Origin: Siphonodentalium dalli
Lineage: Eukaryota; Mollusca; Scaphopoda; Gadilida; Siphonodentaliidae
Direction: 5' to 3'
Assembly (NCBI GenBank): GCA_032622095.1
Contig: CP136064.1
Location: 262,549,863-262,613,862 of the forward strand
DNA: 64,000 nucleotides
The position numbers were made by a program, and so were the translations under genes. Under the pieces are notes generated by a model that did not search any database, was not told the origin of the DNA, and saw only the letters and a list, made by a program, of their open reading frames with translations. This document shows, one piece after another, positions 1,165 through 64,000 of the stretch. Position 1 is the first letter of the stretch. Each line of letters opens with the position of its first letter.

Positions 1165-1237
1165 ATGGCAGGGATTATTATCACATTAGTGTTAGTTAAT
1201 TCGATCTTGTGTGGAGTGTGGATATACGCAGACACAG
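1165..1237 (+). CDS. Exon 1: signal peptide
   Basis: The ATG has a purine at -3 and G at +4 (AAGATGG). The 24 complete codons give a short N-terminus and a hydrophobic core rich in Ile, Val and Leu, with a plausible cleavage after Ala22 (sequence IYA-DTA). The exon ends at CACAG/GTAACT in phase 1, which fits the LDLa exon at 17767: the split codon reads GCC (Ala). Upstream sequence shows no recognisable coding region. A diverged copy of this exon and its upstream flank lies near 3525-3640. An alternative signal-peptide exon lies at 18389. Assignment of this exon to the distant LDLa exon, 16.5 kb away, rests on phase and domain logic only. Confidence 0.68.
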
Positions 1238-16200: not shown

Positions 16201-19200
16201 AGGATCTACAACGAGTCCCCAGTTTATAGCGGAATTTACAAAAAGGCTCGGTCCAGACCTAATTTACTGGACAAGTTTTGTAAATTCCGCTATAAATTGG
16301 GGACGATTTGTAGATGTTATTTATTACATGATCCAAAACCTCGACAAAGCATACTTAAATCAACAAATGGGACGCATAACTAACATCGGCTTCTATAAGG
16401 CATGCGATGACGTTTCACGTAACTATACATTGTTTGAACGCGTAAAGAAATAGTCCCAGATAAATAAAGACTCTTTGGCGTATTTAATGGCGTATAATAA
16501 TGACATAACTTTTCAAACTCTTCATTCATTATAATCTGTTGGACAAATATTGGAAACCATAGTATTTGGAATCGTAGCGTTCGGAGGTTATTTATAGGAT
16601 TTTATCGGAGAGTGTAACACAGTTCTACTTACTTTCTCTTTCTCAAATTGCAAGTACTAATAAAACACGTACAAATAATTAATTACGTTCATCTGCAGAG
16701 AATATTGTTGATGAATTAAATTGATATAGTAATTGCTTGAATTCGGTCAGGCTCCAATTAAATGGGATAATACAAACTTTCATACCCCGACTTCGTATGA
16801 TCAGACGGACTAATTGAAGTAATAGATAAAATCTCATCAAAGAGACAAAGTAGGTCTCAGTTAGTATACAGCATGCACGTGTAACAATGAAGTGTGTTCC
16901 ATGTTAATTTTGTCCTGACATGGGAACAATAAAGAGAATATTGAATTTCATAATAAACTGTATTGTTTTGGAGTAGATGCCAAAAATGTATTAATTCATA
17001 AAACAATTATTTCGCTCGTGGCACGTCGCGCGCGAAAAAGAACATTTGTATCGGCCACCAATGAGACATTGCTTTAGGTGTCCGCTCAAAAACACTACTA
17101 CATATCCTCTAAATACACATGAATGATAGATTTTCTGTGTTCTGTGATGTAATTTTCTGAAGCATACGTCTGACGTTTAGAACGAAGTGACTTAAATATA
17201 TAGCCCTGGGACTTAGATCTACGACCTGACGTTACAATACACATAGAGCTTATCACCCATGTTTAGCGCTTTGTCGTCTGCAGTCTTAATTTGGTTATAA
17301 TGGCGGCATGACGTCATTTAATTGCGTCGCATTATTTTAGTTGATATTCACACTCCAAATAATGACCAGGTGCATGAATGTTAGTGGTAGGCGGTACATT
17401 ATACCTTACGTTATTGAATTTGGAATTCAATAATCCGCTCAAATAAATTGAATATAAAGGATATCAAATCCAATGTTTATTTCCTTCTTAATTTAATTTT
17501 AAGGTTTATACAGAGAGCTGTGCGTTAGAATAATAATACAAGCTTGTGTCTAACGTCATCAACTTACGGGGAATGACATACTGACGTAGATTCAAATGGG
17601 GAATTTACCCTCAATCCGGCCATTTATGGGACCATCTCCCTTTATAGACAACATAATATTTGCAATAAATGAATGATTTTGAGCCAGCTAATCCTCGCTG
17701 CTTGTCGGAGTTTTTTTTAGATGCGGCAGATCTCCTTGTGATAACGTATATCGTATTTCCTTTCAGCCTCCACTTGCGGGGATGGGAAATTCAAATGTCG
17801 AACATCTGACCAGTGCTTCACAAATGCCATCAAATGTAACGGTGTCAGTGAATGTGATGACGCAAGTGACGAGGAACGATGCCGTATGTAATAGTTACTA
17901 ATAACCCACCAACTAGAGAGCTTTTGCAAAATCATGATCACAATTCTATATACTTTATTGCTTAATCGCTACTTGACATAATATATGGCAAGTCAAACAG
18001 CCTTATACGACAACAAATAAACAACTACGAGGAAACATTAAAGGGACACAAAGCATTCGAAGTGGGTGAATGTGCAAAATATAAAAATGTCTGCAGAATG
18101 CCTATAAATATAACATGAGAAATAGATTAACTCTGTTCGTATAAACAATTCAATTCAATTCAATATTTGAAACCATTGTTATGTAAACAAAACCTTTACC
18201 GTGATGTGTCAATAAACATCACCAATCATGTAGTAAGTTGAAATTTGTTAATATGAATATGATTTTCAGAAGACAATATATATGCTTTGATTTTGTCCAA
18301 TATTATTGCACTCATTCCGCTCTAACAGAAATATTTACATAACAATGGTTTTGATATGCGAATTAACGTTATTGTTGAGTTGCTAATAATGAAAATTAGA
18401 AGGAAATCGAACCATTTTTGCTTGTACTTATTGATGCTAGTTGTATTACATAGTCTTATCACATTTAACGGTAAGAAATATGTTGTGTTCCCTGGGCTGG
18501 TTATTTCCGCGGGAGATCTGAAACTTGCTCAATCACTAGGAAGACATGCCACTTATATCAAATCTGAAAATAAGGAGATTTCACTTTCGAATGTTCACAA
18601 GCGATCGGTTTTCCGTACCTTTTAAAACAGTTACGGTAGTCAAATTATGCGGAGCAATCCAGTGCCATCAGACTTCATGGTTTTCAGAGTTTATGGCAGC
18701 AATGCATGATTTAGTCCGCTTGAGCACGTAATTGCTCATTTTAACCAGTTTTCTGTGTGCAATAACTTTCTTGATTTTCACTCCCTGTATATTGGCGACA
18801 TGTAACTATTTATCTTCAATACAATTGCTACCTATATATATATGTTTAGCCTATATTGCACTGGATAATTATATATAATATTATATGTTTATAATATATT
18901 TTTGTTTCCCTTATCGCGCATCTGCGTCGCATCCGGTGCACTGTTGTTCGCGTTTTTTCTTACTATTCTGATACGGTTGTCCTCGACATAATGCTGTATT
19001 TGTCCTTTGTTGCGATATGTTGGATGGTGGTGTGACTGGTCATAATTAACATGTATCACATTTTAGATTAAAAAAAAAACATACCAGGCAGATTTTTAAA
19101 ACATTCATTTTGAAATATCGTTATGTTTTTGGAAAAACTTGAGTTGAGGCCATAATTTGCTGAACGCGGAGAGCGCCGATGTTGTATTAATTTTTAACAA

Positions 19201-22200
19201 AATTGACGCACAAAACCGTTCTAAAACGAAATATAATCTTTTAAATACAGAACATATCTTGCATGACACTAAAGCCGCATGGATTGTTGCCAACAGAACA
19301 TGCCACGACAAAGGAGGAAGATTGGCCGCCCTTCCGACTGAACATGAGGTGATGCGTGCGGCGCGGAAACTGGCTGACGGAGACTCCGCGTGGATCGGAG
19401 GACTCAAAAACAACACTGGCTGGGAATGGCGGAGTGGTGAGTGTCCATCGTGCCGTATGAGAAACTAGCTTCGGTTATGCGCCTGCATGTGGGCTAAGTT
19501 AGCTAGCATTGTACCCTAATACATCTAATTACTATAATAAGTCCAATGAACAAATTTATTAGAATCGCATTGCCACACAAACGTGATATTGACCATCGCG
19601 CTCGTTATTACGCCACCTGTGGTGTATCTAGCTGCTGAGATTTTGATATTGCGTGGTGGACAGGGCGAATGCATTGTGGGGCTTTTATTTATAGAGTTGG
19701 AAATTCCGTTTATTTAAAAGTCGGAACTACGCGACCAGTAGGCCAAGTCCAGTAAAACGGTTCGTTATAGGTGCTGGTTGTTATTGTTATTTTAACGGAA
19801 TTCTGAGTTGGTCATTCGCGAAACCAATATATTTTATATTCTATAATTAAAACCGTGGGTATATAATATATGATCCTCTTTATGGATATTGTAGGAAGGT
19901 AAATTTAGCTAAAGCGGTGGGATATCTTGCAAGACAACACATTTCGGTTCGCGCTATAACTGCTCAATGTTTTAACGTGTTACACAACGTCTGATAAAAA
20001 GAGTTCTATCTGGAATATTCACACTATTTTTTCAGAGAACATGCATAGAGTAAACATAGTCCCATCGGACTATCGTAAAGTAGTTCCGTTTAATTCGGGA
20101 TTAATTAACCCTCAGACTGCCGAAACTGCCGACAATAAATTCGCTTGTTCGTGTCCCCCGAAAATCAAACTTGCCTGTTTAGAGGTCCCATTTTCGTGGC
20201 TAATGGTGATAGAATCACAATTTTCAGTCAAGTTCATGGATAAATTACATTACACTTAATCGGCTTATGTCCGCGGCCATAAACCTGCGTTTTGATAACA
20301 ATTTATTCGAGACAAACTGTTGCGCGGGTATCAGTCGGCGCTTATCGGTTGAAGTTATTATGATCGTGCAGCCTGCACGTGCAACAAGTGTTCAAATACA
20401 ACAGAAGAAAAAAATACTATGTCAAATAAATAACGTGATCAATGGACAGACAAGTTTCATTTCCGTGGGACACGAAAAAGCGAATTTAATGTCGTCAGTT
20501 TCGGCAGTCTGAGGGTTTTAATTAATCTCCTTTACGATATCCCGATAGGACTATGTTTACTCTATGTTCTCTGAAAAAAATTGGTGTGAATATTCCCGAT
20601 AGAACTATTTTTATCAGACGTTTTGTAACACATTAAAACATTGAGCAGTTAGCGCAATTTTCTGGAATTTCGGACTATTTCGTCTATAAAAATACGATGA
20701 GCAACTGAAAATGTTTTTCAACATTCTGGAAGGGGTATATGTCCATGGTATATATGTTTAAAATTTCACGCATAAACTATGACAGATAACAAAGTTATAA
20801 TTAGTTTTGTAGGCCCACCATAAATCCCCTATAATAAACGCATGCCTCCGTAAGCACATGGCTTTGCTGTGGATACTTTCGTTCCCAGCATGGATCATTC
20901 TCGCTATCTGTAACATGTCTATGAACAATGGCTGTGCCATGCACTCTTAGCTTTGATCCGCATTTAGAAGCATTCTGGTGTGGCGAATGAGAAACCTGCA
21001 GTAATTTATAAGCCGTAGTTCATTGTAATAATTTGAAGAATTACTTATCTTAACGGAATTCTGAGGCGGTCCATTCATTTAACCAATATATTTTATATTA
21101 TGATTTATATTTATGGCTAATAATATGATCTTGGTGGCGTTACCATTTCTGACTATGGTTTTCTTGTTATTATTTTGTTCCCGCGATAAATTACTCGTCA
21201 TCAGTACGTGGAGGAAATGGCTGTGCGGATGCGCGCGCATTCATTGTACCATGCGATTTTTTACATTAGCTTAATTCGCTTCATTCCTGCGAATAGCAGT
21301 CGAAGTTATTATCCTATACTAATACAAGTATATATGAAATGCAAGCCATCTATGCAATTATTTATAGTGATACTTGTTTCAGGGGGTAGCAGGAAGACAG
21401 CCCGATAGGGCTAGGCCAACCCCCAACAATATATACAGCATTTACTTTATTATATGTTACTGCCATTGTATTATTCATGTGTATATTGTAAATAAATTAT
21501 CCTATCCTACATCTGATTGCTCATAATCTAATAAGACTAATGGACTTAAATTTATTAAAGTCGCATTGCCACACAGGTATTAGAGCGCCATTCGCGTATC
21601 ATTTTTAACATTATTGTGTTTATATAAGGATTAACTGTCATGTGGACTGTTTTTATGGAGATGTAGCCGCGAGCTGAGTGGTCCCCAAGAAAGTCTGGAA
21701 ATAGTGTTTCTGTCATTTGCAGAATGAGGTCCTCAGAGGGTGAATTTACTGATGCTATCCGAAGGGTTTTACATACAAGTTATGACCACTCACCTCGCGG
21801 TTACATCTCCATAAAAACAGTCCACATGACAGTTAATCCTTATATTTATATACATTTAGCGAAAAAGCCACTCTTGTAAATGTATTTAAATCGAAAAGTG
21901 TATCGTGACAAAACCAGCCCAAAATATCCCATAGCACCCTTGGCAAAAGTTAACAGGAACCATTTCTCTTTATATTGAAACCCGATGATTTATTAAGTCA
22001 ATCCTGCGCGAGTCCAAATGCGCCCAAAACATTACGCGTTCGTCTTTCCAAAACCAATGGCGCGTCGATGTAATTATGAGGCTGCAATTATGACCTCTTG
22101 CGCGTTCACCGAGAAATAATTACAACTAGCCACGTGGGCGCCGACTAATCGGAATGCTGGCTTTAGTGATAATCACACTAAGTATGTAAATATATGAAGA

Positions 22201-25200
22201 TATAGACAGTACCATGCAACGAATGCTCTCTATTCAGCGGTTTGTCTTTGCTCGCCCATAGGAAAATAGTATGTAACCACTCACAAACCACATATTATCT
22301 TCGATGTCACATACGTATGCTCTATCGGTTATACCAGCTTATCCTTCTTTGTTTTCAGACAGGAGCAAATTGTACGATCGAGTTGGCTGCTTTACCGAGA
22401 AGAAACTCACACCACGTCCAGTCTACGATACGAAGAATTTTGGAAAATGCAAAAGTTATTGTACTAATTATACTTACATGGGCATCAAGGTGAGTGCACA
22501 TACACACTGACTTCGACAAATACATCACGTGTAGTTTTCTTCATCTTTTCAAACATGGACAGGGATGTGGTGACATGACACTTGGGGGTCTGAGTGTCCC
22601 ACTCAAACTTATTATGTAAGGTAATATGATGCCATGTAATTTTAGGACACATATAGCTCGGATTTATCCTTTATGTTGGTAAAGCAAAGCGATGCTGTGA
22701 AGAACATTTACAGCTATTTACTTCACAGTTTCATTTTAAGTAGGGAGTTAACGACATCCAGCAGTTTAATTATGTTGGTAAAGATTTTTAGCACATGGGA
22801 AATTCATGTCTGCCATAACATCAGTTGGAAATATGACTCACTTTTGGATCGTTATCCCTTATTTGAAAGAACTATTCTTTCGGCCAATTTGACCCCATAG
22901 CTGGGTGGCCCGCCCCAAATACCCAATATAAACTTCGCCACCCTTCAACTCCACACAGTAGGGCCATACTGATAGTAGGACCTGTTATGGACCATTTCCG
23001 AGGATAGTTCGGATTTTTGACCCCATGGTTTGCCTGCCCCGATGGTGGGGCGAAAATGGCACCAAGCATTCTAGAATCGTTCGGATATCGGTAAAATTTG
23101 TCCCACGGCACCGGGGGGGGGGTGGTGAAGGGCGATGTTGTTTCTGGTGGATATGCGGGGCATGCAAGCCACACTTGTCTTCAAATTTGCCGAATTCGGA
23201 ACAGTTCTCGTAAATGGTCCATAGGCCAGCCCACACCGCATGTGTCACCCTGGAACTACCACGCGCATATCTTTTTTACACTCTTTACAAATATAATATT
23301 ATTTTATTAGAAAATCGGCTTTGATCATAAGATAAGGCATTTTCCTTGATTAAGTGAAAAGCATATGAATTGTGCGAACGTCAAATTATATGTCTACCAA
23401 CAATTCGCTGATGAGCAGAGTCCGTGAAATTTAAAGTTCAGTAATGTCAAATTACATTGTTTTGTATGGATGTTTGTATCTGCTTTCAGTTGTCCGTATG
23501 TATGTTGAGTGCTCTTCATTTTACATGTATAGTACGGATATGTAGCAATAATTGTTAGTGTAATATATTGTTTTCTAATCAAGAAGCGTGCTATATTATT
23601 ACGACGATGATCCATATATTAAGCATGCGCGAAGTAGTGAGGACTGAATTATGTTTTGAAAGACTATATTCCGATCTTGGTAACGCAGACAAGCGACCTT
23701 AATTCAAGACGTCTAATTCTTGATATTACATAACGAATTTTCTCACAATATGTGTGTGTTTCATTCTGAAATATGGTACATAAATATATTATTAATGTGA
23801 CATAAACTTTAAGAACTATACATACATTGGCACTACTTATAAGTCAACTTTCGATACTATATGACACGAACATTCCTTAAAATGTCACTGTCTTCAGACC
23901 AATACTATGTACAAAATAGCATTCTTTCACGAGTGAAGTTTATATATCTATGACAACCTATCTGAAGATCATGAGATGGAACTTGATTAAAAACAATGAT
24001 AATTATTTTCATCTAGAAAGCTAATACCCATACATGATATATTTGAGAATTGTCCTACCGTGCATGTTGGTCGATGAACAATTGGGTTGAGGTGAGTTAA
24101 AAACCATAATATATTTAACCTCTCAAACGTATAAAACAATCATTATTTTTGTCTTCTCTTCTCACCAAGAACTTTTGTAAGATATAACTTTTTCAACAGT
24201 GCAGTTGATATATCCACGATTTCATTTCTGAAGGTCAAGAGAGGAGATTTAGTTGAATTAAATATTCCTTGATTCAAGGTTTTTCAGAATTATTTTCATT
24301 TGGAGAGACAGATACTGTTCAAATCAAGCCTGTTGTTCAATATAACTGGTCTCATATGAGTTTTAGGTCACATGTCAGTTTCCAAATATCCGGCTGAACA
24401 GGTATATCTAATAATGTGGCTTATTTCCAGTTGATATCTTCCTGTTTGAGTGCAATAGGCTGCATACCAACAGTTGTTTTCATTGGGCTGAAATATTTGC
24501 GACTGCTGTATTCTTCATTTTCATGTATAGGGGTATGATGTTATAGCATGCACTTAAAAACTTCAACCCAGTATTACGACACAAATAAAGCTTCCCTTGA
24601 TAAAACCAAGACAATAAGCTATTTGGTGATCGGATTGCTGTGTTAAATTATTAATTAGTTCAGCAGTTCTTCGTACATAAAGGGTCAATAATTTAAACAT
24701 GCAAGTGTATGGAACTCGATTGTGTTTGTCTTCTTTTATATTTGCTCAGATTTTATATACAAAGATGAGGATAGGTAAAAGTCTATATATTTCACCAGAT
24801 AATCAATATAAATTCTTTGTTGAAGATATCATTCAATTTTGCCTTGATTTATGCAAAACGTTCGTCTGGTCCTTAACAGTTTAAAAAAAAAATATCAGTC
24901 CATATTAATTCATCATTAGTACATTTGACCATTCTATCTCAATAGTTTGTAACTAGATCTCAATGAAAGTATATATGTAGATATATTGATAAATTGATCC
25001 ACTGCTTTATTATTATATCCATTAATGTGTTTTGTTTCGACTTATAAATCCTTGAAATTCCAACACCGACTATTTGCCACATGGGGTGTGAACCAAGTCA
25101 CTCCCATCTTATGTATGTATTGTCAGAAATGTGGAAACTCCCTAATTGAAATGCGATGTAAACTAATATACCCACAGTGTTTGAATTTCTATTGTAGATC

Positions 25201-28200
25201 GTGCCATAATAATGTCTAGGAAAGTCCTTCGGTTGTGAGCCCAGGTCTCCAAATCTAATATTTTGTTCTCAATGTACGCATCTATGTGGAGTAATTTTTT
25301 CTAAGATTACAAGTTCTGCACATATAGTCCGCCTTTATGTTCAACAGGGTGGACGAGAGAATTGTGTTTGTCCAGACGCACAACATATTAGACCGATGTT
25401 CCGAGGAACACGCTGTGAGGTTTCAGACAACAAAGAATATACAGTCTCATTGACTAAAAGTGGTGAGTATCTATTTCAACCTTACACCTATATCAGGTAT
25501 TATCTAGATGTAACTTCCTTGATTAATATATGTACATGCCACAATTCCTGCGTTGCAATTGGATGGTGAATATAAGTCCAAGCGCCGTAAACAGCCAGGC
25601 ACGCACTTAGCACGTGCGGGTTGTTTTATGGGTACCGTCAACGATCTAGGTATGGCATAAGACGGCTAGAAGAATACCTGTATACCAGCTGAGTCGTGTG
25701 GAAAGTAATATATACATTTAAGTTCCATTCCGCAAACTCTTCAACACATTACTGTTGTCCATATTATGATTTCAAGCAAGTTGGCTTGTGTCAAGTGGGT
25801 TTCATTAAATAATATTTCGCTGAATTTGTGTTTGTTTTATTATATTTTACCGAAACCAATTTTTTATGAAAATATGATTAGTGGTTATGCATGATTCACT
25901 GCTGCATATATACGTAATATTACTTTAATCCAAGGATTATGAAAGTTTCTATAAAGACAATGCCTCTCAAATAACTCTGGCTATTGAATATTGCTCAAGC
26001 AACAGTAAGCTTATGCTATAATAACATTATTTTCATAAAACCGTTTAATGTTATATTCATACGAAAATCAGCGCCGTGTAAGCACCGTCATTGAAACAGG
26101 AAAAAGAAGATAGATAATGTGAAAGTTATTAGCTCTATGTATGGATAGATCACCTCAACGAGTGTCTTCATAATTAAGACGGTCGGCGTGCGTCTTGATT
26201 GGGAGTGATAAACTCTACTCGCGAGCGCGGAGCGCGAGTGAGTAGAGTTTACCACTCACAAACAAGACGCATGCCGACAGTCTTAATTATGTAGACACGA
26301 GTGGGGTGATCTATCCAATTTAGACGATTATATATGCAATACATTAGTCCTGACTGCCACCAGTCACCAAGCCATATTTGCAAAATGACATCGGAATTTG
26401 GGAACTTTAACCCAGGACACCTTAGCCAAATTGATTTCGAACGTTTATTTTCCGAGTAAGAAATGCCACAGGAAACTACTACTAATCAGCAGTCGAGGCA
26501 CGCCGATCCTGTTACAGATACTGAGTTGAGACAGAATATCAACAATTGTGTGCCAGTGAAAACAAGGCGACAAAACCCTTGGTGTATGAACGCATGGATG
26601 GATACCAACCGAAATAACCAGGATATATCGAAATCGAATCCAAACTACCCTGTGCCTGCGGACATTACCAACGAGACACCCTTACACACATTGGATTACT
26701 GGCTGTCAAAATTCGCATATGAGGTTAGGCGCAGTGACGGACAGACGTATTCACCGGCCATATTGGATCAATTGTTTGCCGGAATTCAACGTTACATGTG
26801 GACAGAACTTGACCTGGTAGATATAAAATTCTTCCAACCCGATAACGTTTCGTTCAAAAATTCCAGGAGAGCCCCTGATGCACGTATGAAAGAGCTGACA
26901 GCCGCAGGGATAGGTATTAAGAAGAAACGAGCTGATCCTGTTCTTATAGAGGACGAGACAGCCCTTTGGGATAAGGGCGTATTCGACGAGAATACTTCTG
27001 TCCGACTGACAAACATTGTATTCTTTTATAATGGTAATGCATTCGGATTTCGGGCTATGGACGAGCACAACAAGCTACATGCTGAACAATTCAAAATTTT
27101 TGTGTTCAAACGTAAACTTCATTTAAATGCTCTTGTTTTCGCATGAACATCAAGGCAGACTTACCCAGCGTACAGTTGAACCGAAATTGATTGAACACGT
27201 TGCCCAGCCAGACAATCCACGGTGTTTGGTGAAGATTTTCGAGAAGTATTTGTCGCTTATTCCAAATGAGGGTCAATTTTACCGGCGACCTTTAGACCCC
27301 GGACCGGGAACCAATGTTCCCAGATACGGGAAACAAACAATTGGAGTAAATACACTTTCGCAAATGATGAGAACGGTTTTCAAATCGGCCAACATTGACA
27401 CAACCGACCGAGTGATTCGAAATGATAGTGGAATGGTCACATGTTGTACTACGTTATATAACGCGGGATTTGGGAATCAAGCTGTTACTAGTCGCAGTGG
27501 TCACCACAGTGATGCTGTCCAAAGGTATAAACGACCGTTGGAACCTCTTAAACAAGCGGTAAGTCAGAGTGTAAATCCACCGGTTCCGGATAGTGAACCC
27601 CTATCAGTGAAAAAATCGCGAAAGTGGAAACTCGTTGCGCGTGTGGTGCTACTTCAGTTCCAACTACTCGTAGCACGCCTAAACGATCATATTTACTCAG
27701 AATCAGAGTGCACGAACACTACAACTCTGTTCTCATAATTAAAGGCGACAAAGAAATTGAGATTGACTTGTGATTATAGATGTTCCTGAAATTGTATAAT
27801 AATTTATATACACTGCATTTTCATTGAAATTTGTTAGATGTTTTGTTTCACCCACCCCAGCCCACCCATTTCCCCAAGAAGAATGTCATATGCAACAATT
27901 TCGAGTAGTTGTTAAGACAGTCTCGCTTGTGTTTTTTTATTATTAAGCAATCGAACTGCAATCATTCGAGCGTCTGAACAACTCGAACCTAATTGTCTGT
28001 TGTTCAATGCTCGAATGTTGGTTTGTTGATTGCTTGGTAAGACAACCCAAGCGTAGTATCTTAACCATTAAGAGTCACACTTAGACAAAAGAACTTAGGA
28101 TCTGTATCGTCTAAGGACATTTGGAGGAAGTTGACTGAGACAATGGGTGACATAATTACACGTGTACGACATGAGTCGAACACACACATATGCAGGTCGC

Positions 28201-31200
28201 AATGAGCCATACAGCTATGGTGCAGTTGGATCGCTTCATGTGACTGAGTTCTGGTCCATGCGAAGTGAGAGTAGGACTAAATCATGTAAACGATAATTTG
28301 CACATAACAATGGAGCTTTCCACAGAGGCCACGCCCACAGCGTAGTCCCGCCCAATGGCAATTTATTAGAATATATTCGACCAATCAGATGCCGAGCCGG
28401 CCGCTCGCTGCGGAGATTTTTTCGACGCCATCTTTCTTCACCCTAATTTTGATATCCATGCATACATTCAGGGTTAAATTGGCTATATTCAAACAACTTT
28501 TTTGTTGTCAAATCATAATATACTGAGATTTATATTTACGGCATGATGTTATAAATTTATCCGTGATTATAACAATGTTTTTCGTTTAGCATGACACTTG
28601 TCATAATTTTCACATTTAATGGCAAAACGAATGTATGTTCTCTGGTTTAGATATATTAGAGTTCAGTTATCTGTCTGTCTGTTCTGGTGTGTATGCAATT
28701 TTTCTTCCAGAGCCCTTGATCGATTTTAACCAAATTTGGTGTGGTGTGGTGTGGTACTCGGGATAGCGCGGCAGATGTTATAACGAACTTATATTTTTAA
28801 TTAAATGTTTTTAAAAAATACAAAAAATTAAAATTTGTTTTTCAAATTTTTAAATTTTTTAGCAAGAAGTTTCAATCTAAAAATCTAAAAAGAAAATTTT
28901 AAAATTAAATTAAAAAAAAATTTAATTAAGTAAAAAAAAAAAAAAAAAAAAAAATAAAAACAAATTTTAAAGATTCAATCTAAAAATCTAAAAAGAAAAT
29001 AAAAACAATTTAATTTAAAAAACAAATCAAAGCAGATCAAAGTTCAATCTAAAAAAAAAAAAAAAATTGAATCTAAATAATTTTTTTTAAATCAAACTGG
29101 GTAAAAGATCAAATTTGAACGAATCATATACATGAGTCTGTTTCAGCTAGTTAACATAAGGGCAAGTGCTGATATGTTCACTTCTACGGAAGCCTATTAG
29201 GGCCATTTAATTTTTGTTATATATTCATTAAAATATTTCCTTTTTTATTTAATTGTTTATATATATTCATTAAAATATTTCCTTTTTACTTTCTTTTTTT
29301 ACTTTCCACCTGGGATATAACTTTTCTCCCTGGAAATAACTTATCTCCCAGGGAGATAACTTTGCTCCCGGGAATTAACTTATCTCCCTGGGAGAAAACT
29401 TTTCTCCCGGGAATTAACTTTTCTCCCAGTGAGATAACTTATCTCCCAGGGAGATAACTTATCTCCCAGGGAGATAACTTTTCTCCCGGGAATTAACTTT
29501 TCTCCCAGGATATAACTTTTCTCCCGGGAATTAACTTTTCTCCCAGGGAGATAACTTTACTCCCTGGGAGAAAACTTTTCTCCCGGGAATTAACTTTTCT
29601 CCCAGGGAGATAACTTATCTCACAGGGAGAAAACTTTTCTCCCGGGAATTAACTTTTCTCCCAGGATATATCTTATCTCCCAGGGAGAAAACTTTTCTCC
29701 CGGGAATTAACTTATCTCCCTGGGAGAAAACTTTTCTCCCGGGAATTAACTTATCTCCCAGGGAGAAAACTTATCTCCCAGGCAGAAAACTTTTCTCCCG
29801 GGAATTAACTTTTCTCCCAGGGAGATAACTTATCTCCCAGGGAGAAAACTTTTCTCCCGGGAATTAACTTTTCTCCCAGGGAGATAACTTATCTCCCGGG
29901 AATTAACTTTTCTCCCGTGGTGGAAAATCACGTGATGTGATAGGTTTCACGTAACCGATAACATTCAAACATATCCTCCTACGGTTAAAATACACATGTC
30001 ACGTGTCATTGTCTGATGTCCTGGCGCGAAATAACATTTTGACAGTCAATATATAACGCCTGATGTCACAGGTCCCCTGTTGCGACAACACTACCATAAG
30101 TATATACCTTAATACAAGGTTTATATCTATCAGACCTATATTGAGCATAAACTCACTTGTAATCTAAATTCATCAATATCCTCTGTACATAAGATAATGT
30201 CACATCCCCAGTTCTTTAGACCATATTCACACCTTTAATTTGGTGTATCTCTTGCATCGATACGTGTACGATCACCAAAGATATATCTGAATGTGTGCAC
30301 ACTTTCAAATCCAGACAAACCCTTGAACAGATTCCCATCAAATATAGCATAGTACTACTGCAGAATTCCACTTGTCACAATGATTCACCATGGATGGTCC
30401 TGTCTGTGTGACCTCAGCGGAGTAAATTCTGCAGTGCTACTGTGCTATATTTGATGGGAATCTGTTCAGGGGTTTGTCTGATTTTGAAAGTGTGCACATA
30501 TTCATATATATCTTTGGCGATCTTGCACGTATCGATGTGGGAGATACACCAAATTAAAGGTGCGAATATGGTCTAAAGATCTTGGTATGCGGCATTATAT
30601 TATACACAGGGGATATTGATGAATTTTTATCGCAAGCGAATCTATGCTCAATATAGGTCGGATAGATATAAACCTTGTATTAAGATATATACTCATGGTA
30701 GTGTTGTCACACCAGGGGACCTGTGCCTGGTGTAGCATTCTGTAGTCGAAACAGAAACCAGACCTGTGCCTGGTCGTAGAAGACATTCAGGAACTGAGGA
30801 TATGGCTGGAGTGTTTGACTGTCGGAGTGTTTGACTGTTTATAGTATTGGACCATGTTATGTTGTTATGAAATCATGATATTTCGCCATTAACTATAAAG
30901 TTACCTTCGTATCGAATGCTGCCTATTCCGATTGATTATTTTATATTTTTTTGTGAATATGTGCCATGGCTGTCGCGGACCCTGGACTCTAGTCTAAAAT
31001 ATACTGACCATCGCTAGTATAGTGGTGGGTCCATTTTGGACTACCGGTGATCGTGAAATGCACCAACTCGCTCTAAATTGGACCTATAGCACATGTTTGT
31101 GGCGAAACAATGGGTACATATCATTAAACGCTCTTTATAATGACATGGCGAAACGATTCTATTGAATGCATAAAGTATCCACGGCATCCTTAAACACTCT

Positions 31201-34200
31201 TTATGACGTGACGCAACATTAAATTGAAATAAATAGGCGGACCCCCGGATAACATCGAGGTGGTAAAATAATAATCTAGCGTGCATTGCCCTATACCCGA
31301 GATCACTGCCTGTGTTATTTAACTCAGATTCTATAGCCGATAGCACATCCATAATGTCATCCTTGAATTTTCTCCGTGTCAGGCCCATCGATTTCATAAT
31401 TCTCTTCAAATGTCGCAAACTCATTGTTATGCCATGGTACAAATGAAGAAAACATAATATTTCGATGTATTCAAATCCATGGCTAAAATATCTTTCTATC
31501 ATCCATTCTCTACTATGGTTCACTGTGTCCAAAGGTATGTATTGTGGTGGGTGTGCTTCACATATCACTATAAATAACATCAGGAGAACTTTAAAGGTAC
31601 GGTTGGCCTTGGCGGTGGGTATCCTGTGAAAATATTTCCACCCGTCAAAAACCGCCACAAACAGAAAGAACATCAAAATGTAGACAGACTTTGTCCGTAT
31701 ACAAATAAGAAATATCGCATAAACAGTATGTTATTGTCATATATTTGACCATTGTTATGTAAACAAAAGCATAAAAAGTTACTTTTCTGGTGTTTGTTTA
31801 TATTATGATGGTAAACAAAAAGAGCGTTATTTGTTGGTCAATTCCTGATATGGAACTAATAAAGAGCGTGTATGTCATTTGTGTGTGATTAGCCAGTAGC
31901 ATTGTGCTGTCTTCTGTAACACAATCAGGCTCTAGCTTAGGTAAACTATAGTAGGTCTTTATGATAACATGCTGTTTACGCGATGGTCATGGTATATATG
32001 AACGAAACTGTATGCGTTTTAATGTTTTTCAGTTTACGGTGTTTGGAACAAATTTGAATATTTTCGACAATTAAGGCCTCCCGTACCTTTACCTTTAACA
32101 CCGTCATACATACATCCATGATACGAAAGACTTGCGATGATAATAACAATGAAAACAGCTGGAATGTCGAGTGTAATCCACACTACACCTGTCACGTGAT
32201 TTTCCACCGGTGGAGAAAAGTTTTCTCCCTGGGAGATAAGTTAATTCCCGGGAGAAAAGTTATCTCCCTGGGAGAAAAGTTCATTCCCGGGAGAATAGTT
32301 TTCTCCCTGGGAGATAAGTTAATTCCCGGGAGAAAAGTTTTCTCCCTGGGAGATAAGTTAATTCCCGGGAGAAAAGTTATCTCCCTGGGAGATAAGTTAT
32401 CTCCCTGGGAGAAAAGTTAATTCCCGGGAGAAAAGTTTTCTCCCTGGGAGATAAGTTAATTCCCGGGAGAAAAGTTTTCTCCCTGTGAGATAAGTTAATT
32501 CCCGGGAGATAAGTTATCTCCCTGGGAGAAAAGTTAATTCCCGGGAGAAAAGTTATCTCCCTGGGAGAAAAGTTAATTCCCGGGAGAAAAGTTTTCTCCC
32601 TGGGAGAAAAGTTAATTCCGGGGAGAAAAGTTATCTCCCAGGTGGAAAGTAAAAAAAGAAAGTAAAAAGGAAATATTTTAATGAATATATATCAAAAATT
32701 AAATAAAAAAGGAAATATTTTAATGGATATATATAAAACATTAAATGGCCCTAATAGGCTTCCGTACACTTCGGAAGTCGATCTCGGGTAACAGACAATA
32801 TTTATGTGGATAAAGTATTTTTACCAGTGGGCGGGACTACCGATGTGGGTGTGGCCTCTGTGGAAAGCTCCATTAGGAAGCAAGGAGCACATGCCAAGCA
32901 GTGCGTTCACACATTATGATATATCTACACGTGAAGTGCAATATCTATATGGATTCATTCAGTCTGTAAAAGGGTGACCCGATTAAGGCATCTATGCACT
33001 AAAATATGTCGATTGATCACCACTGGAAGGTTTATTGTGGCCTGTAGTACTTATGCACCTTTTATACAAACTAAATGATACATAGAAATGATGACGTGGT
33101 CACACCAAAATCTCGCACACGCCTTTCTCACGTCGGTGGTGAGTTTTCATTCTCGATAGTTGTGTGAGTAGGTCTGTGGAAACTACATTGTATGCACACG
33201 GGCCCGTAATTGCGAATTTAAGTTTAAACCGGGGATTTCATTATACAAACAACACCGTCGACGCTATATTTGTATTATATCGAGGGTTTTGCATAATATG
33301 GGCCGATTATATATGGAATCCATCAACCGGTTACACCGAGTTTTCGCTTTGAGCCGATGTTTCCGATGTTCAAATCGAACGTCGTGAACAAGACCGCCAT
33401 ATTACATATGCAATTTTGAGCTAAGGTTAGATTATCTGGTTATTGCTTGTTTGATGTTCTGAAACCTTTGTTGAAAGTCATTATGTGCCATATTGATGCG
33501 TGATAAAAACTCTTCGCACGCATACCTGAAATTCAACTCTGCGATAAATACCTTCATACATAAATTATCCTGGGTTGAATTTTGTCCTGTATATGTATTG
33601 TTTTATAATCTTAATTAAAAGTGTGCACCACGAAGAGAGGACATGATTCCAGAATTGTTTTTTCATTCGACGTAGATATACTTATATACCTTATAATTAC
33701 CTCATATGCTCAGATATACCAGTGATTCTAGTTCGAAATAACGTGAATATTAAAGGTGTAGTACTATACCATTCTGAATTTAAAATCGCACAGTACGCAG
33801 ATGAAACAACTATTATTTTAGATGGGTCTGAATCTAGTCTCAGTGAGGCGTATTCAAATATGGATGTCCTTGCTCAGTTGTCAAGATTGCGTGTCAAACC
33901 AGAGAAATGTCAGGCTTCCTGGATTGGCACCCTTGCATCGTATATAAGACTATCTGCCCAGAGCTGAATTTGTCATTGTCTTCATATGTTACTCTTCAAG
34001 AAATTCGCTTCAGAACATGTTTGGAAAAATGATGCAAAATTATGAATCAAAATTAGCAGAAATCGGAACAGTAGTACATGGAAACACAAATTGTTGCCTC
34101 CTCTTGGTAATACTAATTATAACACTATTATTCCAAAATTGACCCACTTTCTTATCACTTCAGTCACTTGCACTCTAAATCTAAATACTATATTTTGTGT

Positions 34201-37200
34201 ATGCTGTATGAAAATCTAAGCGTGACCGAATTGAACGCCGACAGTTATGCCAAAACCATAAAACAGGTGGATTGAAATGGTAGATATAGAACTTTTCAAT
34301 ATGTCGATGAAAATAGTTATCACTGTGTGAACTTCCGCTTGACAGTGGCAACTTATTTTAACTTATGAACCTGAAAACCTGAACCCATACGTTACTATAG
34401 AAACTCAATACAGTCTTTTACACTTTCAAATCTGCAGACGGCGGAACTGATACCTATCAAGGCTGTTACATCGTCGACGACGCAAACTTTATTATAGATG
34501 ACAATTCCCTGCAGAAATGCCAGATGATGTGTGGGTCTTATCCCTTCATCGGTCTTCAGGTAGGTCACTTACCATTTTAAATATACTCTATAACTGCGAA
34601 TGTACCAATAGCGGCCAACCCTCATTTCGTACGCTGTATTCCGGGTGCTTTAGAGCCGGGCGCAGGATAAACCGGACTCTGAATGCATAACGCTGCCGTC
34701 ATGCAAGTTTGATCTTTTGCCACGGGCTGGTGTCCGCCGCCCGTGTACATGTTCATGAGTCCGTGTGTCAGTCAACACTTTCATTCGGCCCACCCTGCAC
34801 GCCACATTCCTTATCCGATCATCACCAAACTTCATACTGATCTTCGGTGCGCCCTCTAGATGGGAGGCATCAAATATGTTGGAAAATCGATAATAAACGT
34901 GGCCGCCAGGGGCCATTTTGAATTCCAAACCATCGGCACACATTGCAGCGCACATATATTGGATAAATCTCTTAAGAATGTACCGGCATGTTTAGGTTCA
35001 CCTCTAGATGGAAGCTATCTGAGTTGGACTTTCTATAAACACCGGCAGCCATCTTGGAGTTCACTCCGGGGTGACATATACATGTAGATGAGAGCCGAAT
35101 ATCGTTGGAAAATATGGCGGCCAGCAACCATCTTGGATTTAGCATTATAGTCAATTGACACACTGCAGGTCGCATTTCTTGGAACAAATGTTTGCAATGA
35201 ACACAGTTTCATATGTGCACAGTACAGCCCCTTCACTAAAACATTTTGACTTTCCTTTTTCTTTGTCATCCCATTGACTGTTCTTGCAGCATATCATTAA
35301 CGCCTATCCAAAGTGTCATTATCGGTATAGCATGCCGAGTAAGATGAGTATTATCAAAGTTTGCGTCGTAATTATCGGGGCAAAAACATTTTTATTTTAA
35401 ATTACTGAGGTTATACATGATGATCATATTTTGAACTCCCACCATATAATTCGTTTCACTTTTTGTCACGAAATATTAAAACAAATCTTCTTTATTTGAG
35501 TAATGTTATTTATTTAAAAGATCAATCTGTTACACTCTCTCAAAATTAGTTGATTTCTCAGTAACGGCTTCGTGATTATTACAATCTCAACAGAGAAATC
35601 AAAGGTCAACATCAGTCTAATTATTTTTTTGAAGTCTCCTAACTATGCATTCTCAGAAAGAAAAAAATGTCTTCGAACATCGTCAGAATGCTCGAAAAGT
35701 GACACATATGCGAGGCGATCCTAAGTCCAGTTCTTTTTTGAAGTACAATATATCATAATATATAAAGTATTTACTGTCCGATTTTCACGGTTAATGGGTC
35801 AAATCTTACATAATTATTTGTACAATTAAAATTCTGCTATTGATTAAAACGTATACTTCAAAATTGAAAGATATAATTTGAGCTGCGCACTGTAATTGTA
35901 ATTTGGGAATGGACAATATGCCAGGTTATGCAATCCCGGCCGTTGACAGTAGTATCGCAGCATTCAATTAATTAGAAATCGTGCATATGCATGTAGTGCT
36001 CCAAGTTACAATGGGTACTGATGGACTGCTGGTTATGGTATGTATATAAATGTATGACAACCCACATATATAGCTATAGGTGTCGTCTGAGTCGCAAATA
36101 ACTCAACCATTCGCATATGTGCGTGTTCAGTACCGGCAACTATTTGGATCGTACAAATGACCCAATTAGTGTGAGATTTTGGAGGCCAAATTTATAATTC
36201 CTTATTGAACAAGGTTGTTTATATTCCACAATGTTAAATACCTGAAATCAACGCCATTCGTACGACACTGGCATCGCGATAATTCACACAACCATCCGTG
36301 GGTAACGCCTCGAAAACAATAAAAATAATATGACATAGGTGAGCCCGCTCTTTATGGTTCACTTCTTGTGGGTGAGGACAGCATAGACGCTCTGTATACG
36401 AATCGAGTATTGGAATGTTTGCTGGGCACACATAAATTCTAATTTTTAAATTCAAAGCGCTCCCCGTGGGAATGGGTCTTTTGGTCATTTCTGAATATAT
36501 TCTGGTATATATATTTAAAACGAACAGACGGCGGTTTTATGATGTCTTATCAACGGCGCACCTTTAAGCTATAATTGATACGCTGCTCTGTCTGAACAAT
36601 CAAACCCATGTTTAGACAATGAATCAGATTGATGTTTTTAAATATTGCACAAAAATCAAATTCATGAAAACCAGGAAACGAACTGTAGGGTGGATATAGT
36701 TCTAAATTAATTAATATTTGTTGTCAGTCCGAGACCGTTGCCGCGAGTAAAAGCCATTCATCTGACCATTATTATACCAACACATCATATCGTAACTGCT
36801 CATTGTGTTATGGTCGTATAGGATTTAAGCATTAATCTATATATATATATTTCACCCGATCTCCATGGAAACTTGGAAGTCAATATGTACGGATTCGATT
36901 ACTACATACGCACATGTATTCGCTACAGACTACCAGACCCCTGCCATTGGAATTACGGAACGTTGCGTAATAATCACTGGCAAACTACGAGTTAAATTTG
37001 TTGTTAAAATTTGACCTTTCTAGTTTGTTGTTATGCATGTTAATAAATAGCGTAATTCGAATTCCACATGCAAATATTTATGGGTTGACGCTTCAAAATT
37101 GAAAATAAAATCGCCATTGCACTCCTTGTGTAAATGGGCCCATGGTTCGATCTGAATATGTTCTGATATATAAAACGAGATGATGTAGCTTTATGGTGTC

Positions 37201-40200
37201 AATTCGGTCAGCGCATCTCTAAAATATAATATACAGTAAACACAGAATTTAAAGAAATATATTATCGCCAACAGCTCGTAAACGAGAACGCTTTTTATTA
37301 CCCATCGCTTTTGTGCGACACACTCATTAAGGCTCTTTATAATGGAACTCCAATCTAATTGGTCCAATCTAATTATTTTCGGACATTGAACTCATACATT
37401 GTTATGGTGTTATTGTGTCGAATCGGACAGGTCATCTTTGTAATTAAAACCAATATCCTACAGTTTATATCCTATAGTCTCCCAGTAATGGTGTAGTAGT
37501 GCATGTTAAGACATGTTACGGAATACATTGTTGTCCACATTCTCCACCTTCCTCTACTGAAAATTGCCAGATAATTGATGAAAAGTACGGGTTATACGAT
37601 TAATATCATTGGTAAATGAAATTGATTTAAATTGTCTGCCAATTTGCCATAATTAGAGACAACTTTTTTGAAAGTTATAGATTTGTATATAATTACTTTT
37701 TTATAACGTCTATATGAACAAACTTAGTTATGACTCAATATCACACTGTTGGACTTTTGGCAATTTGGCGACAATGGGAGTTTAATATCGCAGTTTTCTT
37801 CGGTTAATATCGCAATATTATTCGCTCAATATCGCACCATTAAGCGCGATAAATGTTCTGTATTGCGCTATAATCGCTTCCTTTTATAAATTAACTGCGC
37901 TCAATATCGCAATAAAGGTGCGCATCAATATAACACTTCATCTGACTGGTACTGTATCATATCATAATTTGCCGTTGTTGGCTCGATGATTGCATGCACA
38001 GCTCGCCGCATGATGGGCTTCTCGTAATCGTAACTACGGGTATGACAAAAACAACAACAGATGTAAAGAACACAGATTGTAGTGATGTACATGTAGTACT
38101 CAATTCGGAATTCTTATCAGTGGTTATTCATTATGCGAAAGGTATCTTTGCCGCGATGCGCAATACAGTCCAATGGCAGCATTGGCAGGTAACCAAGATG
38201 ATACGGGTAATTATACCCTTTCCGTCTTAGTTACCACACGCACATACAAGTAACCCTGCAACAGAACCGTATTATGTGTACATGCAGGGCGGGTCATGCT
38301 ACTGCTATATGGATTTCAATCTGCGACAAGACGAACATGCCTGCAACATTCCGTGCCCCGGAGATCCTGGCCAATCATGTGGTGGTGAGAACAAGACGAT
38401 GGCGATATACAAACGACACGGTAAGTATATCGTTAATATTGTGCATTGTGAGATCCATGTTTGTAGGACCGACATGGTGTTTGAGCTGTCATACCCAAAC
38501 TCTTGTCGTAAGATTCAACTTCAAGCCCAAATCAACTGCAGTTGGAAATTTCAGACGTACTTTAAGATGAGATGGTTCCGATAGTTTTGAGTTTTTCAAC
38601 AAATTTCTAGGATAAAATAAGTGGACTTTATACCAAGATTATGACATGTTACTTCCTTGAATTAAATTGTGGGGCTGAAATGGACATCAGGTGGAAATTT
38701 CCAGTCATAGGATAATTTTTTATTGTAAAGTTTGAAAGTTCGATATATCCGTCAGAAGACACCAACTGACGGGCGTGCATGTTTGGTCTTCAAAAGGGGT
38801 TCACATTTTACCACCAAAAACACCTACCCGCGTCCCGGATATGCTACAGTCTGCTTTCGACGAATCCGCCTGTCGGTGACATATCAGTCGGGTAGATTAC
38901 GTGTCCGTTTGGCACACTATATTAGCGCAAATGCGAGTGTCGCTGGTGCAATTCCCAAACCAACCAAGCCTATATGATAGTGCAGTAGTAAATATTACTG
39001 ATGCAAGAATTTTTCAGCGTCGACACCTCGAAAATGGGGGGTGCTGAATAGGTAATGTGCATCGCTCGGCGAATTTACAATAAGTAAATGGAGATATCAA
39101 CCTGGCAACTGACGTAGACATGCAAGCGTCCAACAATCAGGCAACACAACTGTTCATATTTCCCTTTACTACTCCGGTGTTTGGCACTCTGTGGCCATCA
39201 TACTTACAAATATTTCATGTCATAGACCACAGGAAAGGTACGACTTCACGGCGGTGTAAACATTTGGATATTCTGAAGAACATCCAATCTGCAAGCACGA
39301 TAAGCGGGTGTCACCACATTATATATGGTGCTCGAAATTCGGGTGGTTTTTAAGTGATTGTGTCTTAACACATTGTACATATAAACATATACTTCAGAGC
39401 AAAGAGTAGCATTTAAACATAATCCGATAAAGGAAAATGGAATATTTCTATTGTGTTTCAGAATTCGGCTAGAATCCATAGGCTGAACTGAAGTTGTCGC
39501 CCCTCCCATTATCTAAACCGCTTGATTGCGTCTCAGCACATATCTTGTATTTGCAGTATCAAAATATGTCGGCTGGGGTCAAGGGCAGCCCTTAGCAGCA
39601 AACAAGTGTGCATGTGTTTCTGACTTTGATGATGAGACATCTTTTAGTTGGAAGGCATATGCATGTGGTGTCAAAAGGCCAGCCTTGTGCACTAACTATA
39701 GTAATGCTTACTCAGGAAATCCACAGGTAAATATAATTAGTTACTAATTATCTATTTATTACTCTATTTGCGTCGTTGTGAACAATTTAAAGCGACACTA
39801 AACCAATCTATATATGCCGCGGTGTATACAATATCCAGGCAATGTAAATAGCTAAGTACTGGAGTCAATGTACAGGTAAATTGTATGCTTCTTTATCGAA
39901 CTTCCTGGACGGTTTTCATATTAGTTGTATATCTGGGTCCTCGACTACATTTGCAGATGACATCACTCTCCTTGCTTTGACTTCTTCATACTTGTTCTTA
40001 TAGTTGTAGATGGATCGTTCCCATACAAAGTAAAGTCATGGTCTTTAATAAGAAATCTAACAATTCCGAACAACATGCATCATATAAAATAGGTCACTCA
40101 AACATGCGTGTTGTCCTGTGTACGTATCACTATAGACATCTGATAGAGGGATTATTAATCATTACTGCAGGATCACGCCGGCGTTTGCAAGTGATTAGTA

Positions 40201-49200: not shown

Positions 49201-52200
49201 ATTCGATCGCATTCGCCGTCATACCATTCTTTCTGTTCCTCCCGTTTACTAATCCGCGAAACTCCCCCACCCTTGTATGCTTTATTTTCGTATATATGTG
49301 CTCTATATATTATAACGCATGTGCGTGAATATATATATTATGTATCTGATTCTGTAATTCTAAAATCTGTAATATCACTATATGATGACCATAATAAATT
49401 GAATTGAATTGAATTGTTAGAAATTTTACACCAACAATGGGTTGATTTTCCAACAATCTGTTATGGGGAATGCATAATTTCCTATTTTTGGTAAAAATGT
49501 TGGACTGGAATGGCAATCAGTTGGACATTTTCCAAACTCAGAGGCGGTGGCAGATCTGATATTTACAACAATTGGAAAGCTTGAGGCCAGTATAGATGCT
49601 AGGGTTAAGAAATGTTCATGTTTATATATCACAATTTCCTGGTACCCATCCCTCCCAAAATAAAACTGCGAAATAATAAAGAACAAATGTAGTTGTTAAT
49701 TTGCTGGGCGTTTGACCACTAGATGTTAGGAATTTGCAATTGTAATGTTCAGATATCAAAATATTCTCATACCATGGTCGTCCAGTGGATTATGCCCCTA
49801 CCCCCGGCAAGTGGTCACAAGACTACTGATCCATTTAGAATAGCCTATCACCCAGGAATTTGAGGGAAGAGTTGGAAAGAACCAAAGCCAGGAGTGGTGC
49901 AATGGAATTTATCAAACAAAAGTTGTGACTTTTGCGAGGTTCAAATGAGAGGGGTGAAGCTGGAAGTGTTTTCGAGATCGTCGGTCGGTAGAATATTTGG
50001 CATATATGTATTTCACTGGGACCGTATTGGCAGATTCCTATTTGATGTAAATATTAGTTCTATATCATGGTGACGCATTTGTCATGAGGTAAATAGACAC
50101 AAATTATATGGGATGTCCATATTCGTCCTGTATTCACTATATATTCCTACATTCACAACCATTTTATAATTCAAACATGGTAAGTACACAATGGTCCATA
50201 ACAATCAAATGAATAATAAACTTGATATCCCAATCACCACTCATCAAATAACTGGACTGTCAACACGGCCCAGTGAATTCCAGTTCAAAGCGATAATTAG
50301 GATTTGTGACAATGCCTTGGCAAGCGAAGTCGATGCAGCGAGGACGCACACTATCAGGCCAAGCAAACTAAATGTTTGTTGTAGTTGGAAGGTGTCCATG
50401 CTGTTAACACATATGCACAGGTGTCAGCTAGACTTCCACCCATGCGTTATCTGAGATCTAACATCATGTGAGTCAGAAATATTGTGTTTATTGGTTTATA
50501 CATGCACAACCAAGTAGTACATATCGCAGGATTGAGCATTGTTCATGGGCCGGGGGGGGGGGGGGTCGATTGACACATTTTTAATAACGATTTCAATCCC
50601 AAATCTCCGGATCACTATTTAAAGTGGCAACTTAATTTGCGTACAAATCTTTATTAGTCTGACAGACTCGGAACTTGTTTAATGGCCATGTTCATATTTT
50701 TCGTTAAAATTTTTATTGACTTTTAGTTAAATATATCATACATTGTAATAACATTGACAAATTTCTAAGTAAAATTATAGCAAACATTTTAAATTTCGCC
50801 TTGTTATTCTTTAAATACTGTGGTTTAAGATTGATATTCCCCTCGCTGTCGGGCATTCGTCCAAATCACACCTCGGCTTCGCCTCGGTGAATTATGTGTC
50901 CGAATGCCCGACAGCTCGGGGAATATCCTATACATACACCAAGTGTCGAGTGTTATACAAAAACATGGTAGCATCTGAAAGAGATGGTCCTGGAATGCAA
51001 TCCAGGACCCGAAGAACGTTAGAAAATAAGTATAGGCCTTCCAATTTCCCACATCAATCGAAAAAATCATAACGATTTGAAGAATTTATACATTCGGAAT
51101 ATCATGGTTGTTGATGATGTTCAAGAGAGGTTGCGCGTTGGCCGATTTGGTTGGTCACTTCCGTTTACAACTTCCGACATTTCTCTCCCGTTTTCTGAAG
51201 TTAAAAGGCTCGTATTATCTATATAATTGGTGACGTCACAAACTAAAAATGTTCGCATAAAGTACGCCATGTGGTCGTTATTGGTAAATTGAATGCTGCT
51301 GGTTACCAAAAACTGGACAAACTTTATCAGATTAGTTATACAGCTCACAATTCTTCCATGCAGAGAAAACTAGTTAACTGAAGCTTAAAATGTCGCCATA
51401 ATATATGATCAAGGTTTTTATCATAATCAAAAGACATTACAATTCAGATCAAACTATTTTTAATTCGAAAGAACCTTATCTGAAAAAAAACACGGGGACA
51501 TTCGTTAGTGGTACAGAACAATTACCTTTTCGTCACCAAGCGTTGTTGTTAAGGATTGGAAACATCTTTCCGACTTCATAGTTGAGACAGAAGATTCGAC
51601 TCAGTTCAAAGCATACCTGGGCTACTCGTGAGCACTGTGCCAGGTCATCTACTTTCTTCTGAAACTGTTACCGGGACATAACGTCGCGAGATTTATTTTG
51701 CATGTTGATGATGATTAATGGCACGTGTATTTTGTTCCAGAATGAGTTTATTGTTGCTTCTGGAAATAAAAACTGGACGAGCTCTATCGGAGTATGCTCA
51801 GATAAAGGTTCCGGTTGGATATTAGATGAATTTGGTATGGATTTGTCTGTGAATTCAAGCGATTTCTATAAAGACTGCTATTGGATCGGACTACACAGAA
51901 ATTACAGTTATATATGGACTAATGGTGAGAATTCCTTAAGATGTCACTATCCCATCCAAATTTAAACCAAATTAGTTGAACACTTTTCAGACAAGTTCTG
52001 CTCACCAGGGAAATAAAAAAGAAATTACTTACAATTAGCATTCCTTAGTAGTCCACATACATCTCGCCGAGTCCAAGAACGCCAAAGTTAATTTGATGAA
52101 AGTAGGTATAAAGACATTTGTATTATATTTCCATCAACTTTTAACATCAAAATCGTATCCTCAATTCCCAGAATACCGAGCGTATTATTCCACTCTCAGC

Positions 52201-63627: not shown

Positions 63628-63810
63628 TACCTAAACTATTGACCATTTGCGCTATAGCGAGTAATGTGTAAATCTGCACGATGAGTATCCAGCAGCATCG
63701 ATATGATGAAGCAGTGTGTCATGCATGTTTATATCACAGTAACTCGTAAAATGTTATCATACATCATTGTTGGATGATAGCTGAAAATAAATCCATGGTG
63801 GGGAATCACG
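63628..63810 (+). other. Probable 3' UTR with polyadenylation signal
   Basis: AATAAA stands at about 63786, 160 bases after the stop codon. No competing ORF or splice site is apparent between them. The exact cleavage site cannot be fixed. Confidence 0.55.
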
Positions 63811-64000
63811 TGGTTTCGAGGTTGGTGAGTACTACGAATTAAAATGGCCGAGGCGAGTGCTAATGCACAACAACTGACACGAAACATAGCATTTTGACTG
63901 TTACGAGCATATGCTAGTTTATTTTTTATAACAAGTTGATACCTTATTTGTTCGAAAATACAGTCGGATGTTTGTGGAATATACCAGTCCATACCTCTAT

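Follow-up and report, generated by a model that had tools for sequence, protein, structure and literature searches.

How does one extracellular domain come to lie inside another? Exon shuffling is usually described as bringing whole modules to positions between domains. At the locus studied here, from the scaphopod mollusc Siphonodentalium dalli, modules apparently lie inside a disulfide-linked domain, because the most tolerant loop of that domain contained a phase-1 intron. The window is the whole stretch of DNA that was analyzed, 64,000 nucleotides of contig CP136064.1 (GenBank assembly GCA_032622095.1, positions 262,549,863 to 262,613,862 of the forward strand), and positions are counted from its first letter. 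A first-pass annotation had proposed that two WSC domains are nested in a split C-type lectin-like domain (CTLD). We consider it probable (about 0.6) that class 1-1 WSC modules sit in the long-loop intron of the first CTLD (CTLD1), are normally spliced in, and form a nested WSC lobe in a type I receptor.

Twelve exons on the + strand (E1 to E12, 1165–63627) make up one frame of 666 residues, with GT-AG at 11 of 11 introns, and we infer that they are joined in one transcript. The domain order is signal peptide, LDL (low-density lipoprotein) receptor class A module (LDLa), CTLD1 N-half, WSC-like domain 1 (WSC1), WSC2, CTLD1 C-half, CTLD2, transmembrane helix, and tyrosine-rich tail, so arranged that the single gene would encode a type I membrane receptor. 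The exons are as follows.

1165..1237, + strand: E1, signal peptide with the start codon ATG (hydrophobic core and a phase-1 donor; ends in phase 1)
17767..17883, + strand: E2, LDL receptor class A module (Pfam Ldl_recept_a; phase 1 to 1)
19251..19436, + strand: E3, CTLD1 N-half (Lectin_C match; phase 1 to 1; donor G/gtgagt)
22359..22489, + strand: E4, WSC-like domain 1, first half (resembles E6; phase 1 to 0)
25348..25462, + strand: E5, WSC-like domain 1, second half (GG..C-x-C past the shared phase-0 junction, cysteine spacing, without cysteines 7 and 8; phase 0 to 1)
34438..34559, + strand: E6, WSC2, first half (Pfam WSC when joined to E7; phase 1 to 0)
38288..38420, + strand: E7, WSC2, second half (Pfam WSC, below the cut-off until joined to E6; phase 0 to 1)
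39557..39726, + strand: E8, CTLD1 C-half (completes Lectin_C with E3; phase 1 to 0)
51741..51924, + strand: E9, CTLD2 N-half (Lectin_C with E10, gene model; phase 0 to 1)
53215..53367, + strand: E10, CTLD2 C-half (Lectin_C with E9, gene model; phase 1 to 1)
61162..61273, + strand: E11, transmembrane helix (hydrophobic run; phase 1 to 2)
63123..63627, + strand: E12, cytoplasmic tail with tyrosines (RRRR after the E11 helix; stop codon TAA at 63625–63627)

The splitting of CTLD1 was evident from the Pfam searches. E3 alone matched Lectin_C with 24.9 bits over profile positions 3–59, and E8 alone had no Pfam match. When the two were joined, a continuous match of 39.7 bits covered positions 3–106 of 107 (cut-off 22.6), that is, the whole profile. 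The proposal that E3 carries only the N-half and E8 only the C-half was thereby borne out. In the PDB, the best matches of the joined CTLD1 were the mannose receptor and the PLA2 receptor; the alignments run across the junction, close to which the lengths differ by two residues, and 100 residues of the query (10–109 of 120) aligned to a mannose receptor CTLD. The insert between E3 and E8 is 501 nt long (167 codons) and has phase 1 at both ends, as had been predicted, and the junctions 19436/22359, 38420/39557, and 19436/39557 are all GT-AG with phase 1 on either side. If all exons are used, CTLD1 is interrupted by 167 residues; an uninterrupted chain depends on splicing.

The usual number of cysteines in a CTLD is four. 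The first-pass annotation expected that number in the joined CTLD1; E8 has four cysteines and not three, however, which brings CTLD1 to five. Each CTLD in fact has five cysteines (39557–39726 region; 51741–53367), the odd ones being C310 or C312, and C395. The odd cysteines of CTLD1 and CTLD2 could pair with one another. At the level of sequence, the split-CTLD anatomy is confirmed with such small corrections.

The inserted exons form two units of unequal clarity. WSC2 (E6 and E7) belongs to Pfam WSC, with 40.3 bits over profile positions 2–82 of 82 (cut-off 27.8) and eight cysteines; E7 alone reached 22.3 bits, and 19.9 bits in the raw frame, both below the cut-off. In the full spliced protein, Pfam showed two stretches of WSC. 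WSC1 (E4 and E5) has no Pfam match by itself and has six cysteines, C7 and C8 being absent; it is described here as WSC-like, a relative of WSC2. BLASTP aligned 29 residues of the two, across the internal junction, with an E-value of 3e-5, and their global alignment score was reached by 0 of 1000 full shuffles and by 1 of 1000 shuffles with the cysteines fixed. Each also has an internal phase-0 intron, and the alignment places both at one and the same residue. The first halves alone, E4 and E6, were related by phmmer at an E-value of only 0.17–0.27. Thus, of the two WSC domains first proposed, the second stands on its Pfam score, and the case for the first comes from its similarity to WSC2, the shared phase-0 intron, and the cysteine spacing.

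The disulfides described for the WSC domain of Kremen1 are C122–C186, C147–C167, C151–C169, and C190–C198 (PMC5014086). Compared with the Kremen1 spacings from the same text, four of the seven in WSC2 are equal (4, 2, 4, and 8), and the remaining ones are 18, 13, and 13 against 25, 16, and 17. WSC1 has counterparts of the first six Kremen1 cysteines in order, with the C-x3-C and C-x-C spacings kept. On this mapping, WSC1 would have kept three bonds and lost the C190–C198 bond whole, and, since the counterparts of C7 and C8 lie close together, one deletion could have removed both. Kremen1 (PDB 5fws, 5fww) thus resembles WSC2 in its eight-cysteine WSC domain, but it has kringle, WSC, and CUB in series, and the sequence match is weak: WSC2 alone found Kremen1 in the PDB with an E-value of 0.066 at best. 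WSC1 and WSC2 together had no PDB match at E up to 1.

The phases suggest how such units could have entered a lectin domain. The WSC1 unit, the WSC2 unit, and the LDLa exon are all of class 1-1, with phase-1 introns on both flanks, and the entry of class 1-1 modules into pre-existing phase-1 introns is presented as the rule (PMC3927616; class 1-1 modules also in PMC8001218). Other CTLDs, too, repeatedly have an intron after the WIGL motif (PMC514892). In CTLD2 (E9 and E10; Lectin_C 26.5 bits, above the cut-off, the match spanning only profile positions 37–107 of 107), the intron 51924/53215 has phase 1 and no insertion. By reading, the junction lies two residues past a Trp in both domains, after WRS in CTLD1 and after WTN in CTLD2. 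The earlier statement that the two introns share place and phase therefore held for the phase and for the distance to the Trp; the global alignment puts the junctions 3 residues apart, due to a gap placed there between two weakly similar CTLDs. This weak similarity means that a shared ancestral intron can be argued less firmly than for recent copies.

Given the phase-1 intron that is empty in CTLD2, the recurrent intron after WIGL, and the class 1-1 rule, insertion of the WSC units into that intron would be the simplest history. Exon shuffling into the CTLD is supported by the phases and by the empty intron of CTLD2. The WSC pair (E4 with E5, E6 with E7) may have been put into the phase-1 intron of the CTLD1 long-loop region by intronic recombination; alternatively, one WSC module may have been inserted and then duplicated. 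The long loop is described as a highly variable and possibly independently evolving part of the CTLD (PMC7618208). The strand order given for the WSC domain is β1-β5-β3-β4-β2 (PMC5014086), in which the first strand neighbors the last, a favorable geometry for a module set into a loop. The interpretation offered earlier, entry through a phase-1 intron still empty in CTLD2, is retained, and its nesting holds for the protein provided that splicing joins every exon in order.

Are the WSC exons normally included? We scored codon-position composition after training on E3 and E8–E12. All four WSC exons, and also E2, scored best when read in their true frame. Open intron frames of 120 nt had a mean of −0.084 and a 95th percentile of 0.139, and the WSC exons scored 0.018, 0.100, 0.103, and 0.160. 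Splice sites were ranked against the GT and AG sites of the window. The donors of E4–E7 were in the top 0.03–0.35% of the GT sites and their acceptors in the top 0.31–5.9% of the AG sites, with E4 at 0.03% (donor) and 0.31% (acceptor). On average, the WSC exons have splice sites at least as strong as those of the lectin exons E3 and E8–E10, and for this reason inclusion is the default expectation. Spliced in by default, the WSC exons would divide the CTLD core into two chain segments, and a WSC-WSC lobe would stand out from its long loop. Judged by the sequence alone, constitutive nesting would be likelier than alternative nesting.

Several results weigh against this reading. Over their whole length, CTLD1 and CTLD2 hardly resemble each other (their score is attained by 13 of 500 shuffles). 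Only E7, one of the four WSC exons, passes the 95th percentile of the open intron frames. The acceptors of E6 (5.9%) and E7 (5.1%) rank below those of E8 (3.7%), E9 (4.0%), and E10 (1.1%), the E3 acceptor (20%) ranking below both. WSC1 alone matched no Pfam family at E up to 10, and E5 alone had no phmmer match to E7. E1 is the weakest part of the gene model, its codon-position score not being best in the true frame. Finally, a stop-containing stretch that resembles a C-half lies 24 nt after E3, at 19461–19538. It is the next best match of the E8 peptide after E8 itself (score 50, tblastn E 0.019), and it could be the relic of another history.

The strongest rival, which we nevertheless think unlikely, is alternative splicing: the main form would join E3 to E8 in a protein of 499 residues with an ordinary CTLD1, and the WSC units would be optional whole cassettes. 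It draws on the E6 and E7 acceptors, on the continuous CTLD1 that Pfam sees in the joined E3 and E8, and on the frame. The reading frame runs to the same stop when WSC1, WSC2, or both are skipped (584, 581, and 499 codons); the five other exon skips tried all lead to early stops. Symmetric phases would follow from exon shuffling anyway, however, and so are no demonstration of skipping, and the four-exon average of the WSC splice sites is at least as strong as that of E3 and E8–E10.

A different history for the same protein is improbable. It supposes two ancestral CTLDs flanking the two WSC modules, the first having lost its C-half and the second its N-half, and it would require both losses to have hit a single intron position and phase. 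The first-pass annotation had itself named what would speak against nesting, a separate C-half exon in 19437–22358 or an N-half in 38421–39556. When the E8 peptide was compared with both strands of the window, the only strong match was E8 itself. No usable exon was found in the first interval; its one candidate is the stretch 19461–19538, in which 14 of 27 aligned positions are identical to the second half of the CTLD1 C-half. No shuffle of the intron (60) or of the local DNA (500) attained its score of 50, nor did any of 400 permuted queries within that intron, but across the window as a whole 4 of 60 permuted queries did. On the other side, the stretch has an in-frame stop and is off the frame of E3; the initial 26 residues of a C-half are missing from it, its end runs into a repeat, and its resemblance to E8 at the DNA level is marginal (score attained by 4 of 300 shuffles). 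As it stands, it is unusable as a C-half exon. Searches for an N-half in 38421–39556 were at chance level, the observed scores being reached by 18 of 60 and 17 of 60 shuffles. A tblastn match of the CTLD1 N-half at 47547–47627 (E 0.046) was also at chance level.

The raw-frame Pfam scan covered the + strand frames of 3500–48501 and 49000–64000 and, on the minus strand, five open reading frames. E2, E3, and E7 were picked up by it, but E4, E5, E6, E8, E9, and E10 were not. Because it missed six of the nine LDLa, CTLD, and WSC exons, its silence on further CTLD halves is weak evidence.

We regard it as equally improbable that the WSC exons are a separate gene on the same strand within a CTLD intron, or the product of misassembly. 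The introns between E3 and E8 are 1.1–9.0 kb long and contain repeats and mobile-element sequence, and there is a weak signal-peptide candidate at 30454–30559. Against this, the phases fit at five of five junctions from E3 to E8, and no signal-peptide exon was found in 19437–22358, between E3 and E4, by the filter used. The 30454 candidate lies within a self-inverted repeat (30067–30725) and downstream of WSC1. That the WSC exons are decaying relics, spliced out or ignored, is very improbable: WSC1 is degenerate relative to Pfam WSC and three of the four exons score within the range of open intron frames, but none of E4–E7 has a stop or a broken splice site, and the cysteines absent from WSC1 make up one disulfide pair.

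At the 5′ end, E1 is one of three distinct places in the window that pass the signal-peptide filter, and it joins E2 in frame. Another candidate signal-peptide exon, 18389–18470, was abandoned because the LDLa module lies upstream of it and because, in codon-position composition, it scored worst when read in its own frame. In the best model the first exon is 1165–1237, a provisional choice over 18389–18470. E2 came from the raw-frame scan, where Ldl_recept_a scored 24.8 bits, rising to 28.4 and 30.9 bits in spliced contexts (cut-off 24.1; six cysteines), and it fits the earlier numbering of 19251 as exon 3.

Known receptors share parts of this architecture. Mannose and PLA2 receptors carry cysteine-rich and FN2 modules, and neither module is among the Pfam matches of the spliced protein. 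These receptors (PDB 5xts, 7qsr) are the best PDB matches of the joined CTLD1 and have several CTLDs per membrane protein; the present protein differs by the WSC units within CTLD1 and the LDLa module before it. WSC and CTLD are reported together in human PKD1 (Polycystin-1), likewise an animal membrane protein (PMC1934368). Here, in contrast, the WSC units are nested in the CTLD and there is one transmembrane helix. PKD, REJ, GPS, and PLAT were absent from the 11 Pfam families of the spliced protein, which places it outside the Polycystin-1 family. The additional domains listed for bivalve-specific architectures of CTLD proteins also include WSC (PMC10140915); the available text leaves order and nesting unstated, so an identical nested protein is possible there.

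The first-pass annotation knew of no receptor with a CTLD interrupted by WSC modules. The co-occurrence of the two domains in one protein is already known (PMC1934368, PMC10140915), while the nesting appears to be new: among the matches listed in the open-licence literature (main text), none described a WSC domain inside a CTLD. In a survey of domain insertions, the words "lectin" and "WSC" were absent from the main text (PMC13114784). An unremarked nested relative may exist elsewhere, as annotation could list such a protein as a pair of lectin fragments. Pattern searches gave no match of the joined CTLD1 in a collection of viral contigs and, for WSC2b+CTLD1C, 23 matches in one of genome contigs, none of which was confirmed; the two collections cover viruses and prokaryotes, so that absence there says little.

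What would a nested WSC lobe do? EPN, QPD, EPS, EPD, QPN, and WND do not occur in the 666 residues, so the protein lacks the motifs of calcium-dependent sugar binding at site II. Because EPN, QPD, and WND are absent, the WSC lobe, rather than the calcium site of the CTLD, may carry ligand binding. WSC domains include a β-glucan-binding fungal lectin, although a single WSC may not bind glycans strongly (PMC9024836), and the WSC domain of Kremen makes protein contacts (PMC5014086). In a proposal that we hold to be evenly poised, the tandem WSC would be a stable long-loop insertion, a glycan-binding lobe that replaces calcium-dependent sugar binding, and unit-wise splicing may switch one CTLD between an ordinary form and a form with WSC. 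By sequence reading, the protein has a single hydrophobic helix, followed by the membrane-proximal RRRR and a tail with ten tyrosines. The tail may signal or drive uptake; no classical immunoreceptor tyrosine-based activation or inhibition motif was seen in it by eye. If transcripts confirm the nesting, it would be a route by which a recognition-type receptor changes its ligand surface with the scaffold unaltered. It also raises the question of whether other CTLD genes with this intron hold nested modules that are annotated as fragments.

The exons lie among repeats and mobile elements. Searches of this DNA for Rfam families and tRNA genes found none. In intron 1, a stop-to-stop frame of 949 codons at 4934–7783 matched RVT_1 with 127.8 bits, and zf-RVT below the cut-off, as in an open reading frame of the long interspersed nuclear element type. 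Between the WSC units, 26460–27738 contains matches to QRICH1 (30.7 bits) and DUF3504 (26.6 and 16.9 bits) in two overlapping frames, all slightly or clearly below the cut-off; it resembles a tyrosine-recombinase-type element. The same intron holds two minisatellite arrays (29312–29917 and 32212–32639) with short palindromic GGGAGA...TCTCCC units. The intron between CTLD1 and CTLD2 carries an inverted repeat, 41000–42602 and 44283–45930, with 83.6% identity over 1687 aligned positions.

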